A stretch of DNA of 64,000 bases from NCBI RefSeq assembly GCF_024612015.1, contig NZ_CP102512.1:2976001-3040000 (forward strand), written 5' to 3'. Source of the stretch: Streptomyces sp. CA-210063 (lineage in GTDB: Bacteria > Actinomycetota > Actinomycetes > Streptomycetales > Streptomycetaceae). Numbering within the stretch: position 1 is the first letter of the stretch; every line of letters begins with the position of its first letter. Of this stretch, positions 3,157 through 8,474 are shown piece after piece. The notes under the pieces are model-generated. The model did not search any database. It was not told where the DNA came from and saw only the letters and a list, made by a program, of their open reading frames with translations. Position numbers and translations under genes: made by a program.

Positions 3157-4647
3157 GTGCGCGTCCCGGCCCGTCTCGTCCCTCTCACCGCGGTCACCAC
3201 CGCGGCCTCCGCCCTGCTCACGGGCTGCTTCGCGTCGACGGAATCCGCGGAGACCGGGAGCGAGGGCAAGCGCATACGTGTGGCGCACATGCTGCCGCCC
3301 CGCTCGGGCCTGTCACCGCTCTCCGACGACGCGTTCAAGCTGTCGCGCTGGTCGACCGCCGAGACCCTGGTGAAGCTGAACGCGGAGGGCGACGCACAGC
3401 CCGCGCTGGCCACCGAGTGGGAGCGGTCCGGGAAGACCTGGACGTTCACGATCCGGGACGGCGTCACCTTCCACGACGGTACGAAGCTCACCGGCGAGGC
3501 CGTCGTCAAGTCGCTCACCGTGGCCGCCACCGCCTCCCCCAAGCCCCGCATCCTCGACGGCGTGGACCTGACGGCGAAGGCCGACGGCAATACCGTCACC
3601 GTCACCACGGGCACCGAGGACCCGCTCGTCCCGCAGCGCCTCAGCTCGCCGCAACTGTCGATCCTCGCGGCGAAGGCGTACAAGGGGAAAACGGTGAACC
3701 CCGTCGGCGCGGGCACCGGCCCCTTCGAGCTGACCAAGGTCAACGGCACCGCCTCCGCCGCCCTCGACCGCTACGACGACTACTGGGGCGGCAAGGCCAA
3801 GGCCCCCGGTATCGACGTGAAGTTCGTGCCGGACGGCACCGCCCGCGCGGCCTCCCTGCGCACCGGCGAGGCCGACATCGTCGAGGCGATCCCGGTGTCG
3901 CAGGCGGCCGTGCTCGACCAGGACCTGATCACCGAGGTCCCGATGCCCCGGACCAACACCCTGTACCTGAACACCGAGAAGGGCGTCTTCAAGGACGCCT
4001 CGCTGCGCGCCGCCGCCCGTGAGGCCATCGACGCGAAGTCGATCGTCGACGGTGTGTACGAGGGGCGGGCGGATGTCGCCGAGGGGCTGCTGGGCCCCGC
4101 GCTCCCCTGGGCCGCCGAGCTGCGCTCGACCGTGAAACACACCGAGGCCGGGGACCCGTCGGGCAAGTCGATCACCATCGGCACCTTCACCGACCGCGCC
4201 GAGCTGCCCGAGGTCGCGGCAACGCTCCAGCAGCAGCTGCAGAAGGCCGGGTTCAAGGTGAAGCTCGACGTGCGTGAGTACGCCAACATCGAATCCGACG
4301 CGCTGGCGGGCGAGTTCGACGCGTTCATCCTCTCCCGGGCGACCGTCCTCGACTCCGGCGACCCTGCCGCGTACCTGTACAGCGACTTCGCCTCCGACGG
4401 CTCCTTCAACCTCTCCCAGCTCGCCGACAAGACCGTCGACACGGCCCTCGACAAGGCCGCCGACACCGCCGCCGGCGACGCCCGCCGCCAGGCCGTCATC
4501 GACGCCGAGGCCGCCGTCCTCACCACCGACGCGGCCGTGCCGATGCTCCACGAGCGGGTCATCCAGGGCGACGCGGCCGGAGTCGTGGACGCGGCGCACG
4601 ACCCGCGCGAGCGGGAGCTGGTCACGGCGGACACGTACATCAAGTGA
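3157..4647 (+). CDS. Peptide/nickel-type ABC transporter substrate-binding lipoprotein
   Basis: A 496-residue solute-binding protein of the SBP_bac_5 (DppA/NikA/CntA) family. The N-terminus is a lipoprotein signal ending in the lipobox LLTGC, so it is anchored outside the membrane. Family landmarks are WTFTIRDGVTFHDGTKLTGE (about 95-114) and TGPFELTKVNGTASAALDRYDDYWGG. It starts with GTG after a CGGAG site. Its stop codon overlaps or nearly meets the permease start, so the genes form one operon with the two ATPases downstream. A Zur-like box lies 58 bp upstream. Members of this family bind peptides, nickel chelates or metallophore-metal complexes; the Zur-like box makes a zinc-metallophore substrate an attractive but unproven guess. 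Confidence 0.88.
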   Translation: MRVPARLVPLTAVTTAASALLTGCFASTESAETGSEGKRIRVAHMLPPRSGLSPLSDDAFKLSRWSTAETLVKLNAEGDAQPALATEWERSGKTWTFTIRDGVTFHDGTKLTGEAVVKSLTVAATASPKPRILDGVDLTAKADGNTVTVTTGTEDPLVPQRLSSPQLSILAAKAYKGKTVNPVGAGTGPFELTKVNGTASAALDRYDDYWGGKAKAPGIDVKFVPDGTARAASLRTGEADIVEAIPVSQAAVLDQDLITEVPMPRTNTLYLNTEKGVFKDASLRAAAREAIDAKSIVDGVYEGRADVAEGLLGPALPWAAELRSTVKHTEAGDPSGKSITIGTFTDRAELPEVAATLQQQLQKAGFKVKLDVREYANIESDALAGEFDAFILSRATVLDSGDPAAYLYSDFASDGSFNLSQLADKTVDTALDKAADTAAGDARRQAVIDAEAAVLTTDAAVPMLHERVIQGDAAGVVDAAHDPRERELVTADTYIK

Positions 4648-4655
4648 GGAAAGCC

Positions 4656-6722
4656 GTGGGGAAGTCGGCAGACGCGGCGCGAGTGGATCGGGGCGCGGAG
4701 AGGCCGCCCGACGCGGCGCGGGAGAACCGTGCCGGAGCGGAGTCGGCCGGTTCCCCCCAAGTGGGCCTTGCCGCAGGGGAGTCGGCTGGTTCCGCCCCAG
4801 TGGGGCCCGCCGCAGGCGAGTCCGCCGGTACGGCTCAAGTGGGGCCTGACGCAAGGAAGTTCACCGGTCCGGCCCGAGTACGACGTGCCTCGACGAAGTT
4901 CGCCGGTCCCACCCGAGTGCGGCGTGCCGCCAGGCACTTGGTCGGTCCCGCCGGGCTCACCCGCTTCGTCTGTCTGGTCGCCGTGCTGGCCGTCGTCGGT
5001 CTGCTGCCGTGGCTGTCCGGCCGCGATCCCGCGCTGACCGTGCTGCGCGCCCGGTCCGCAGAGCAGGAGGCCACGCCCGAGGCGCTGGCCGCGATCCGTG
5101 ACGACCTCGGCCTGGGTGCCGGTCCCCTTTCCCTGCTGGGGGGCTGGGCCTCGGGGCTGCTGCGCGGCGATCTGGGCACCTCGTGGGTGTCGGGCACGGA
5201 CGTGCTTCCCTCGGTGGTCTCCGGCCTCCAGGTCTCCCTCGGTGTGATGGGCGCCGCCTTCGCCGTCGCGGTGCTGCTGGCCTGCGCGCTGGTCGCCCCG
5301 GTGCTCGTACGGGGCCGGGGCTCGGCCGGCGCGTTCGCCGCGATGCTCGCCGCCGTGCCCGAGTTCCTGCTGGCCACGGTGGCGTTGCTGGTGTGCGGGG
5401 TGTGGCTGGGCTGGCTGCCGACGGCGGGCTGGGCCGGCCCCGAGTACCTGGTCCTGCCCGCGATCGCCCTCGGTGTCCCGGCCGGCGGTCTGCTGGGCCG
5501 CCTGGTCGCGGACGCGCTGCCCGCCGTGCTCGACGAGCGCTGGGTGGAGCTGTGGCGCGGCGCGGGCGTGAGCCGGGCCCGGATCTCGGCGGCCGCGCTG
5601 CGCCGTGTACTGCCGCCCCTGGTACCGCAGTTCGGCATGGCCGCCGTGGGCCTGACGGGCGGCGCGGTCGCCGTGGAGACGGTGTTCGCGGTGCCCGGCA
5701 TCGGCCGTACGGCGCTGGGGGCGGCCAAGTCCCAGGACCTCCCCCTCCTCCAGGGCTCGATCCTCGCCCTCCTCGCCCTCGGCCTGGTCGCCGGCGCCCT
5801 GGCTGCCCTCGCCCGGCGCCGGCTCCTCGGCCCGGCCCTGCGCGACGCTGGCCTCACCCTCCCGCCGGCCCGCCCGGTCCGCACCCACCCGGCGATACCC
5901 CTGGCCCTGGCCGTCGTCCTCCTGGTCACCATCGGCTGGGGCCTGCTGCGCGACCCGTACGCCGTGGACACCACCGCACGTCTCCTCCCGCCGTCCTGGG
6001 GGCACCCGCTCGGCACGGACGGGCTCGGCCGTGACGTGCTGGCCCGCCTCGGCCACGGCGCGGCCTCCACGGTCGGTACCGCGGCGGCGGTCTGCGCGCT
6101 GAGCCTGCTGGTCTCTCTCGCGCTCGGCTTCCTGCCGGGCGTGGCCGAGGGCGCGGCGGACATCGCCAACGCGCTGCCCCCGGTGATCGCCGGCATCCTC
6201 GTCGCCGCCGCGGCCGGCCCCGGTACGGGCGGCGCGGCCCTCGCCGTGGCCCTGATCTCCTGGCCGGCCCTGTCCGCCCACGCGGCGGCGCTGGTCCAGG
6301 AGGTCCGCGCGTCCACGTTCCTGACCGCTCAACGGGCCATCGGCGCGAGCCCGTGGTGGATCCTCACCCGGCACGTCCTCCCGTCCGTCGCCGCCCCGGT
6401 CGCCCGTCACGCCGTCCTCCGTCTCCCGGGCATCGCCCTGGCTCTCGCCTCCCTCGGCTTCCTGGGCCTCGGCGCCCAACCGCCCACCCCCGAGTGGGGG
6501 TTGCTCCTCGACGAGTCCCGCGCGTACGTGGAACGCGCCCCGTGGGCCGCCCTGGCCCCGGCGGTCGCCCTGGCCCTGCTGGCCGGGCTGGCGGTGTCGG
6601 GGGCGGCGTACGCGGAGGGGCAGCGCGGCCGGAAGACCGGCCGGAGTGCGCGGAACTCCAAGGGGCCCACGGGCTCGAAGAGCGGACGGACCATGGCGAA
6701 GGAGGCCCCCGTTGACGCCTGA
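4656..6722 (+). CDS. Fused DppB-DppC type ABC transporter permease
   Basis: One polypeptide of about 688 residues carries both permease halves that are normally separate proteins. The first BPD_transp_1 unit spans about residues 105-390 (coupling loop VELWRGAGVSRARISAAALRR) and the second about 405-655 (coupling loop FLTAQRAIGASPWWILTRHV). The DppC hallmark LGTDGLGRDVLARL precedes the second unit. GTG at 4656 is preferred because AGGAAA stands six bases before it; GTG at 4644, overlapping the previous stop, is the alternative. The first ~100 residues are not membrane protein but degenerate 13-residue repeats of the type ESAGSxxVGxAAG, coded by 39-bp tandem DNA repeats. The true start might therefore lie near the first membrane helix (about 4960). 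It imports the ligand delivered by the upstream lipoprotein. Confidence 0.85.
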   Translation: MGKSADAARVDRGAERPPDAARENRAGAESAGSPQVGLAAGESAGSAPVGPAAGESAGTAQVGPDARKFTGPARVRRASTKFAGPTRVRRAARHLVGPAGLTRFVCLVAVLAVVGLLPWLSGRDPALTVLRARSAEQEATPEALAAIRDDLGLGAGPLSLLGGWASGLLRGDLGTSWVSGTDVLPSVVSGLQVSLGVMGAAFAVAVLLACALVAPVLVRGRGSAGAFAAMLAAVPEFLLATVALLVCGVWLGWLPTAGWAGPEYLVLPAIALGVPAGGLLGRLVADALPAVLDERWVELWRGAGVSRARISAAALRRVLPPLVPQFGMAAVGLTGGAVAVETVFAVPGIGRTALGAAKSQDLPLLQGSILALLALGLVAGALAALARRRLLGPALRDAGLTLPPARPVRTHPAIPLALAVVLLVTIGWGLLRDPYAVDTTARLLPPSWGHPLGTDGLGRDVLARLGHGAASTVGTAAAVCALSLLVSLALGFLPGVAEGAADIANALPPVIAGILVAAAAGPGTGGAALAVALISWPALSAHAAALVQEVRASTFLTAQRAIGASPWWILTRHVLPSVAAPVARHAVLRLPGIALALASLGFLGLGAQPPTPEWGLLLDESRAYVERAPWAALAPAVALALLAGLAVSGAAYAEGQRGRKTGRSARNSKGPTGSKSGRTMAKEAPVDA
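4741..4955 (+). repeat. 39-bp degenerate tandem repeat in the permease 5' end
   Basis: Five full 39-bp units (4741, 4780, 4819, 4858, 4897) and a half unit share the skeleton AGTCGGCCGGTTCC...AGTGGGGC...CCGCAGG. Since 39 is a multiple of three, each unit adds 13 residues and keeps the frame. The units diverge along the array, the first three being most alike. Confidence 0.85.
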
Positions 6723-7743
6723 CGACGTACTCCTGTCGGTACGCGAGCTGCGGATCGCGTTCAACGGGGTGGAGGCCGTGCGCGGTCTGTCCTTCGACGT
6801 CCGCCCGCGCGAAGTGCTCGCCCTGGTCGGCGAGTCGGGCGCGGGCAAGTCCCTCACGGCCCGGGCACTGCTCGGGATGCTGCCGAGGGGCGCGACGACG
6901 AGCGGAACCGTACGGCTGCGGGGTGAGACGGACATCGCCGCCCACCGTGGCCGCCGTATCGCCCTCGTCCCCCAGGACGCCCTCTCCGCCCTCTCCCCCG
7001 TGCACCCCGTGGGCGACCAACTGGCCGCCGCCGTACGGTCGGTGGCGGGCGTCTCGCGCAAGGAGGCCCGCGCCCGTGCGGTCGCCGCGCTCGACCGGGT
7101 CGGGATCCCGGACGCCGTACGCAAGGCGCGGGCTTATCCGCACGAGTACTCCGGCGGTATGCGTCAGCGAGCGGTGATCGCCATGGCGACGATCAACGAA
7201 CCGGACGTCGTCGTCGCCGACGAACCCACGACCGCGCTCGACGCGGAGCTCCAGGAACAGGTGCTGCGGGTCCTCAGCGAGCAGCGCGAGGCGGTCGGCG
7301 CCGCGCTCGTGCTGGTCACCCACGACCTGGGCGTCGTCCGGGAACACGCCGACCGCGTCCTGGTCATGTACGCCGGGCGTCAGGTCGAACAGGGCCCGGC
7401 GAAAGGGGTGTTGGGGCGACCCCGAGCGCCGTACACGGCGGGCCTGCTGGCGTCACTGCCACCCGAGGCCGGCAGCGCTGCCGACAGCGTCGGCGGTGAC
7501 GATCCTCGCGCTGCCGCCGGCCGTCGTCGCCGTCGGCTGCCCTCCATTCCCGGCTCGCCGCCCACCCCCGACGCCCTCCCACCGGGCTGCGCTTTCGCCC
7601 CCCGCTGCCCGCTGGTGGAGGACCGCTGCCGTCACGAGGAACCGCGACCGTGGCCGACGGCCGACGACGGTCACGAGGTCTCCTGCCACCGGTGGGACGA
7701 AGTCCCCTACCCCGCAGCCGAGTTGTTCCAGGAGCCCGTATGA
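6712..7743 (+). CDS. ABC transporter ATP-binding protein (DppD type)
   Basis: A 343-residue nucleotide-binding subunit on the inner membrane face. It has Walker A GESGAGKS (about 40-47), a Q-loop VPQDALSALSP, the signature EYSGGMRQR (about 146-154), Walker [13 protein letters not shown] and the H-loop THDLGVV. The C-terminal oligopeptide/dipeptide domain contains the cysteine cluster GCAFAPRCPLVEDRC, which in homologues can bind an iron-sulfur cluster. TTG at 6712 is chosen because GGAGG is seven bases upstream; it overlaps the permease end by 11 bp. Its stop codon (ATGA at 7740-7743) begins the 17-bp repeat ladder that leads to the second ATPase. Confidence 0.88.
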   Translation: MTPDDVLLSVRELRIAFNGVEAVRGLSFDVRPREVLALVGESGAGKSLTARALLGMLPRGATTSGTVRLRGETDIAAHRGRRIALVPQDALSALSPVHPVGDQLAAAVRSVAGVSRKEARARAVAALDRVGIPDAVRKARAYPHEYSGGMRQRAVIAMATINEPDVVVADEPTTALDAELQEQVLRVLSEQREAVGAALVLVTHDLGVVREHADRVLVMYAGRQVEQGPAKGVLGRPRAPYTAGLLASLPPEAGSAADSVGGDDPRAAAGRRRRRLPSIPGSPPTPDALPPGCAFAPRCPLVEDRCRHEEPRPWPTADDGHEVSCHRWDEVPYPAAELFQEPV

Positions 7744-7795
7744 ACCAGGAACCCATATGAACCAGGAGCCCGCATGAACCAGGAGCCCGCATGAA
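7728..7795 (+). repeat. 17-bp tandem repeat forming a ladder of overlapping mini-ORFs
   Basis: Four 17-bp units CCAGGAGCCCGCATGAA (7728, 7745, 7762, 7779), differing at only a few bases, join the two ATPase genes. Every unit holds a GGAG/GGAA ribosome site and an ATG (7740, 7757, 7774, 7791). The first three ATGs each open a six-codon frame (MNQEPI or MNQEPA) that stops at the TGA overlapping the next ATG; the fourth ATG is the start of the downstream ATPase. This is directly visible; that ribosomes use the ladder is inferred. Confidence 0.9.
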
Positions 7796-8474
7796 CCAGA
7801 GCGACCCTCTGCTCGGCGTACGCGACCTGGTCGTCCGCTACGGCACGGTCACCGCGGTCGACCGGGTGTCCTTCACGGTGGACGCGGGCGAGACCCTGGC
7901 CCTGAACGGCCCGTCCGGCTGCGGCAAGTCCTCCACGGTCGCCGCCGTGCTCCAGCTGCGGCGCCCGGAGTCGGGCGAAGTCCGTTTCGAGGGGCGGGAG
8001 TTGACCGCCCTCACCGAGAGTGAGCTGCGCCCGCTCCGCCCCCGTATGCAGCCCGTCTTCCAGGACCCGTACGGCTCGCTCAGTCCCCGCCACCGCATCC
8101 GGGACGCGGTGGCGGAGCCTCTGCGCGTCCAGGGCCGCTGGGACGCCACCGGTCCCGCCCGGGTCGCCGAACTCCTCGACCGGGTCGGCCTGGACCCGGC
8201 CTACGGCGACCGCTTCCCGCACGAGCTGTCCGGCGGACAGTGCCAACGTGCCGGGATCGCCCGGGCGTTGGCGTCCGAGCCCCGCCTGCTGGTCCTCGAC
8301 GAGCCGGTGTCCGCCCTCGACCCGTCGATCCGGGCCGGAGTCCTCAACCTGCTCGCCGACCTCCAGGACGAGCTGGAGCTGGGGTACCTCTTCATCTGCC
8401 ACGACCGTGCGGTCGTACGCCACTTCGCGGACCGTTCGATCGAGATGCGGGCGGGGAAGCTCGTCCCGGCCTAG
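7791..8474 (+). CDS. ABC transporter ATP-binding protein (DppF type, short)
   Basis: A 227-residue ATPase with Walker A GPSGCGKSS (about 41-49), Q-loop FQDPYGSLSPRH, signature ELSGGQCQRAGIARAL, Walker B LLVLDEPVSALD and H-loop CHDRAVV; the usual Asp after the H-loop His is kept. It lacks the C-terminal oligopeptide-binding extension of about 80 residues seen in most DppF/OppF proteins, so it is trimmed to the core domain. The ATG at 7791 is the last rung of the repeat ladder. It completes the importer: lipoprotein, fused permease and two ATPases. A decayed kinase gene follows after 37 bp. Confidence 0.87.
   Translation: MNQSDPLLGVRDLVVRYGTVTAVDRVSFTVDAGETLALNGPSGCGKSSTVAAVLQLRRPESGEVRFEGRELTALTESELRPLRPRMQPVFQDPYGSLSPRHRIRDAVAEPLRVQGRWDATGPARVAELLDRVGLDPAYGDRFPHELSGGQCQRAGIARALASEPRLLVLDEPVSALDPSIRAGVLNLLADLQDELELGYLFICHDRAVVRHFADRSIEMRAGKLVPA

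Follow-up and report, generated by a model that had tools for sequence, protein, structure and literature searches.

Tandem duplication of a -4 nt stop/start overlap as the probable origin of a four-step ATGA ladder between two transporter ATPase genes of Streptomyces

Two neighboring ATPase genes of Streptomyces sp. CA-210063 meet at a junction that holds four ATG codons, three of which open frames of only six codons. How did this junction arise, and could ribosomes use the small frames to pass from one gene to the next? We analyzed it within a stretch of 64,000 nucleotides (the window; coordinates below are window positions on the plus strand unless stated otherwise), and compared it with orthologous junctions and with similar arrays in sets of genomes with one genome per species.

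The junction lies in a transporter operon. The first gene encodes a solute-binding protein of the SBP_bac_5 family (3157..4647). It is followed by genes for a fused permease with NikB/Opp2B-like and NikC/Opp2C-like halves (a 692-aa frame, 4644..6722), a DppD-type ATPase (6712..7743) and a DppF-type ATPase (227 aa, 7791..8474). These assignments are from the list of open reading frames and from profile matches. The names DppD-type and DppF-type are taken from Pfam matches and from NCBIfam matches that fall short of the curated cut-offs, and models for nickel, peptide and opine substrates all matched. The TGA of the solute-binding protein gene overlaps the GTG of the permease gene by 4 nt (GTGA, 4644-4647). 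For the DppD-type gene the probable start, assigned by reading, is TTG 6712; it lies behind AAGGAGG and gives an 11-nt overlap with the end of the permease gene. The list of open reading frames puts this start at GTG 6646 instead. The N-terminal part of the fused permease contains 39-bp tandem repeats (4730-4949; 0 mod 3), a further in-frame expansion within the operon.

A preliminary description of this DNA had proposed four near-identical units, each with a Shine-Dalgarno-like site (SD) and an ATG, and both direct reading and TRF bore this out. TRF found a 17-bp tandem array at 7728-7799 (4.2 copies, 90% matches, score 116), whereas 20 dinucleotide shuffles of the 64-kb window scored 70 at most. 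The unit plus CCAG matched four times in the window, with 0 matches expected from 100 shuffles. On these two results a chance origin of the array was rejected. The full units occupy 7728-7744, 7745-7761, 7762-7778 and 7779-7795, and a partial fifth unit, CCAG, reaches 7799. The four ATG codons are at 7740, 7757, 7774 and 7791.

The array has the features of a -4 nt overlap. The upstream DppD-type frame ends in ..QEPV and its stop (TGA, 7741-7743) lies inside the first ATGA; the first of the four ATGA motifs ends the upstream gene and the last begins the downstream gene. Between them are three mini-frames, each of which closes exactly on the next ATGA, as had been described: MNQEPI-stop (7740..7760), whose TGA lies within the ATGA of the second rung; MNQEPA-stop (7757..7777); and a second MNQEPA-stop (7774..7794), whose TGA lies within the ATGA of the DppF-type start. 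That last ATG, at 7791, does open the 227-aa ATPase, and it aligns with the start codon of the closest relative found. SD pairing was -6.6, -4.3, -6.6 and -6.6 kcal/mol before starts 1 to 4, respectively. The second site is weaker because it reads GGAA and not GGAG. The predicted RNA fold of 7690-7850 was unremarkable (z -0.47; 59/200 shuffles were equally or more stable).

The length of the unit matters for what it encodes. Because 17 is 2 mod 3, every added unit creates a six-codon frame from one ATGA to the next, and the same arithmetic upholds the earlier claim that gain or loss of units keeps the ATPase in frame. In general, when a duplication of period P spans an ATGA, the new frame meets the next TGA only if P is 2 mod 3. 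A P of 0 mod 3 just lengthens the downstream protein, and with a P of 1 mod 3 closure is possible only two units on. The closed ladder thus follows from the period and is not separate evidence of design. Repeat-based phase variation also involves a slippage-prone tandem unit at a gene start, and in this respect the window array is similar. However, each unit of the array ends on the start that follows it, and a change in copy number therefore cannot turn the frame on or off as it would in phase variation.

We found a single unit at the corresponding junction of the closest relative found (L086, genome G253), whose DppF and DppD proteins are 97% and 92% identical to those of the window. This junction, ttCCAGGAGCCCGTATGAACCAGagc, contains exactly one unit, and its ends are CCAG copies 17 bp apart. 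The single unit in this relative makes it likely that the four-unit array is a derived expansion and that the change ran from one unit to four. The CCAG copies may have seeded it by slippage. Unit 1 of the array is identical to the single unit of L086; unit 2 has two differences from it and units 3 and 4 have one each, none of them in the ATGA. The units of the array vary at three columns. Substitutions among the units indicate that the array is not freshly expanded and has been present long enough to gather changes. Within the 10.86-Mb one-contig genome, a 21-base query of unit plus CCAG, with up to 3 mismatches allowed, matched nowhere but at the array's own four overlapping copies; the reversed control pattern gave 1 match. 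A mobile or dispersed repeat was rejected on the grounds that this search, which is blind to copies differing at over 3 of the 21 bases, located the unit at this locus only.

Duplications at orthologous junctions followed the same frame rule. From 116 rows we obtained 91 junctions by removing 4 repeats of the window locus, 5 rows with less than 70% DppF identity, 1 of the wrong length and 15 duplicates. At 85 of the 91, a DppD match ended no more than 250 nt upstream; the six with no nearby DppD match were L050, L051, L061, L065, L104 and L116. A script scored tandem duplications with a period of 9-41 and about two copies or more, and found them at 7/91 junctions. Those that repeat the start have periods of 17, 23 and 26, all 2 mod 3. 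Those that are in frame have periods of 12, 15, 12 and 18, all 0 mod 3. None of the 7 has a period of 1 mod 3, for which the chance is about 0.06 with equal classes. The 26-bp duplication is in S. cyaneochromogenes (L036/L097), where the mini-frame is cut early by a TAG. The 23-bp duplication, in Streptomyces sp. S.PB5, is at one of the six junctions with no nearby DppD match (L051) and has ATGA followed by GTGA. The 17-bp array of the window was missing from the other 90 of the 91 junctions. The in-frame expansions fall on either side of the start, indicating that both protein ends vary at this junction.

We consider it probable (about 0.68) that a -4 nt coupling junction was duplicated here, that the duplication was filtered by reading frame, and that the result lets ribosomes hop from rung to rung. 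In this scheme, the -4 nt ATGA overlap of the two ATPase genes would have been tandemly duplicated, probably via slippage between the CCAG copies, and each rung frame joins a DppF-type N-terminus (MNQ) to a DppD-type tail (EPx). A terminating ribosome could reinitiate rung by rung up to the DppF-type gene, helped by the SD in every unit, and the net effect on protein level would be small. Because the frames run from ATGA to ATGA, such a ribosome would never meet a step beyond -4 nt. Tolerance of the duplication would follow from the poor conservation of both protein ends and from the ability of coupling to persist through it.

Published work on coupling bears on this scheme. In the reporter experiments described in PMC10666635, coupling in E. 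coli and Haloferax was nearly lost at an inter-gene distance of ~20 nt, and the final 15 nt of the upstream gene were enough for coupling. Studies in which coupling survived at +25 to +40 nt and more are among those reviewed in PMC12548453, which treats ribosome passage between neighboring genes as not settled. Since coupling has been reported at wider spacings, a 51-nt insert with no rungs should weaken or abolish coupling but need not fully uncouple the genes.

The main competing explanation is that the repeat is inert: slippage was neutral, ribosomes begin the DppF-type gene by de novo initiation at the fourth SD, and the upper rungs are unused. We regard this as a serious possibility, at somewhat under even odds. 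The last rung has a good SD of its own (-6.6 kcal/mol, ahead of ATG 7791), so de novo initiation could render the upper rungs irrelevant. The limitation of the array to one of the 91 junctions and the tolerance of in-frame expansions in the same linker are also as expected for an inert repeat. Likewise, and counter to hopping, another ladder in the window genome (L276) has no obvious SD and a last frame that does not reach the next ATG, and it does not feed its gene. However, the absence of 1-mod-3 periods among the 7 duplications argues against an inert repeat, as do the properties of ladders elsewhere in the genus.

The preliminary description treated the locus as singular, and this did not hold: a survey revealed ladders at many other Streptomyces genes. 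Three ATGA motifs at an exact period of 17 were present in 95/323 Streptomyces genomes. Phylum-wide, 23/306 genomes had a match, two of them Streptomyces, including the window genome, in a set of mostly much smaller genomes. Among the first 150 Streptomyces genomes, those with a match numbered 57 for a period of 14, 36 for 16, 42 for 17, 14 for 19 and 30 for 20. A period of 18 gave a match in 125/150, and we did not carry it into the locus-level test, since in-frame coding repeats appeared to prevail among the matches listed. Matches compared to reversed-pattern matches were 123/46 (period 14), 78/53 (16), 86/31 (17), 18/28 (19) and 39/13 (20). Pooled, these are 248/90 for periods that are 2 mod 3 (14/17/20) and 96/81 for periods that are 1 mod 3 (16/19). 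There was thus an excess of the pattern at 2 mod 3 and hardly any at 1 mod 3 (p=2e-5 by Fisher's test, in which each of several overlapping matches counts).

Arrays with 2-mod-3 periods were also found more often at gene starts. For each locus we asked whether a frame of 70 codons or more, with codon-position GC typical of Streptomyces, begins at the last ATG and whether one ends at the first TGA. For period 14 we retrieved 72 of the 84 loci listed and set aside another 7 arrays, which are 7-bp repeats. The loci used at the other periods were 48 (16), 59 (17), 15 (19) and 34 (20); the period-17 counts cover the first 150 genomes, and 20 loci from the wider set were inspected. The last ATG opened a coding-like ORF in 16 of 74 arrays at period 14, 7 of 55 at period 16, 20 of 62 at period 17, 1 of 15 at period 19 and 9 of 34 at period 20. 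Coding-like ORFs on both sides were found for 5, 0, 3, 0 and 3 of these arrays, respectively. Pooled, a coding-like ORF began at the last ATG in 45/170 arrays with periods of 14, 17 or 20 versus 8/70 with periods of 16 or 19 (p=0.010), and both sides were coding-like in 11/170 versus 0/70 (p=0.037). The upstream side taken alone was coding-like in 37/170 versus 9/70 (p=0.15). The upstream criterion misses the ladder of the window itself, as the end of the DppD-type gene failed the codon-position GC test, and the both-sides counts may therefore be underestimates. Restricting the arrays to a unit identity of 0.65 or more gave p=0.024 for the gene-start contrast and p=0.063 for the both-sides contrast; without half-period arrays the values were p=0.010 and p=0.070. 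Some entries in the pooled counts are not independent, as orthologous loci are among them.

The genes that follow these ladders are diverse. A Pfam family was found in 36/45 of the gene-start ORFs at periods 14, 17 and 20, among them those of response regulators, histidine kinases, transporters and methyltransferases, and no function dominated. As a point against our favored scheme, gene starts also carry 1-mod-3 arrays (8/70), and 6 of these 8 ORFs have a Pfam family. Of the eight, L196 has a Pfam match that begins inside the LtrA model, and L196 and L208 hold 8-bp units; 8 is itself 2 mod 3.

Rungs in gene-start ladders had stronger SDs and closed more reliably than those elsewhere. We compared 40 gene-start ladders with 98 other arrays (periods 14, 17 and 20; unit identity at least 0.65). 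The mean SD of internal rungs was -4.3 kcal/mol in the gene-start ladders and -1.9 in the other arrays (p=4e-6), and the gene-start value was below that of all 200 within-unit shuffles (shuffle mean -2.8 kcal/mol). Copying a working start brings its SD along, and so internal SDs indicate descent from starts more than use. Rungs closed exactly on the next start in 102/103 cases in gene-start ladders versus 215/241 in the other arrays (p=0.0008). The closure of 102/103 was equalled in 5/500 shuffles, and the other arrays had no such excess. Internal SDs and fewer premature stops than in shuffles or other arrays are what we would not expect of inert repeats.

A broader claim would be that start ladders, built of tandem SD-ATGA units at 2-mod-3 periods, are a recurrent, selected architecture of Streptomyces that has arisen independently at many genes, with a rung number that sets ribosome supply to the gene and evolves by slippage while the frame stays intact. 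We find this doubtful. Somewhat less plausible still is that the window array is an expression dial or contingency locus, in which a variable unit number was selected for setting the ratio of DppF to DppD. Unit number does differ between species at this locus (4 in the window, 1 in the closest relative found), and orthologous ladders differ elsewhere. At a Band_7 gene they have 3, 5 and 3 rungs (proteins 69-82% identical), at another gene period-14 ladders have 3 versus 4 rungs (proteins 75% identical), and at a symporter gene the period is 17 versus 14 (proteins 89% identical over the 401 aa compared). Against a dial, the differences among the window units at three columns speak against a fresh expansion, and transporters of this kind are expected to require their two ATPases in comparable quantities. 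Three translatable hexapeptides of almost one sequence might suggest regulatory leader peptides with a ligand-sensing or ribosome-stalling role, but such peptides are very improbable here: the peptides are accounted for as junction chimaeras, the unit sequences of other ladders are unrelated, the RNA fold is unremarkable, and a conserved leader peptide or attenuator was rejected because the array that bears the peptides is absent at 90/91 junctions.

Returning to duplication of a coupling junction, we class the window array as a variant of -4 nt coupling. It shares with the coupling described in PMC12548453 and PMC10666635 (NTGA) an ATGA stop/start overlap, an SD in the upstream frame and genes for subunits of one complex. 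Unlike the usual case, with one overlap between two genes, the window has four overlaps in series with three mini-frames between them. According to PMC12548453, MIRUs appear to be mobile repeats whose insertion at a start codon couples an inner frame to the gene at -4 nt, likely with minimal effect on gene expression. The small frame of the window repeat likewise stands at -4 nt to the following gene. In contrast to the dispersed, apparently mobile MIRUs, the window unit was found at one site of its genome and looks copied from the local junction; the array is MIRU-like in working but is no MIRU. The TAACTGA direct repeats upstream of start codons in Beggiatoaceae and others, for which a translational role is suggested (PMC4679880), are likewise short tandem repeats just before a start codon. 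That system, as presented there, has one fixed heptamer, proposed as a regulator binding site, and no SD-ATG in each unit. Searches of the open-licence literature found no publication on serial SD-ATGA ladders and none on MIRU together with DTGA.

Natural ladders of 3 to 7 rungs with fixed spacing would make the efficiency of reinitiation per step measurable from one construct series, and ladders at unrelated Streptomyces genes offer a natural test of ribosome transfer between genes. In addition, the frame filter hints at a simple rule on the tandem duplications that coupled gene pairs can tolerate.

Several other arrays were observed in the survey. The second 17-bp ATGA ladder of the window genome, with no obvious SD (L276; G000:C1:8412925-8412979, minus strand), appears to begin where an upstream frame stops, and the last of its frames falls 25 nt short of the next ATG. 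The same genome contains a 14-bp ladder of 4 rungs ahead of a 261-aa ORF (L362; G000:C1:7812378-7812423, minus strand); a relative (L359) has 3 rungs ahead of a 75% identical protein. It also contains a 16-bp array (1 mod 3) of ten GTGA/ATGA units ahead of a 126-aa ORF with no Pfam match (L212; G000:C1:3703582-3703681, plus strand; the GTGA units are just upstream of these coordinates). In another genome (L306, G034:C39), a unit with no clear SD forms a seven-rung ATGA/GTGA ladder between two coding-like ORFs.
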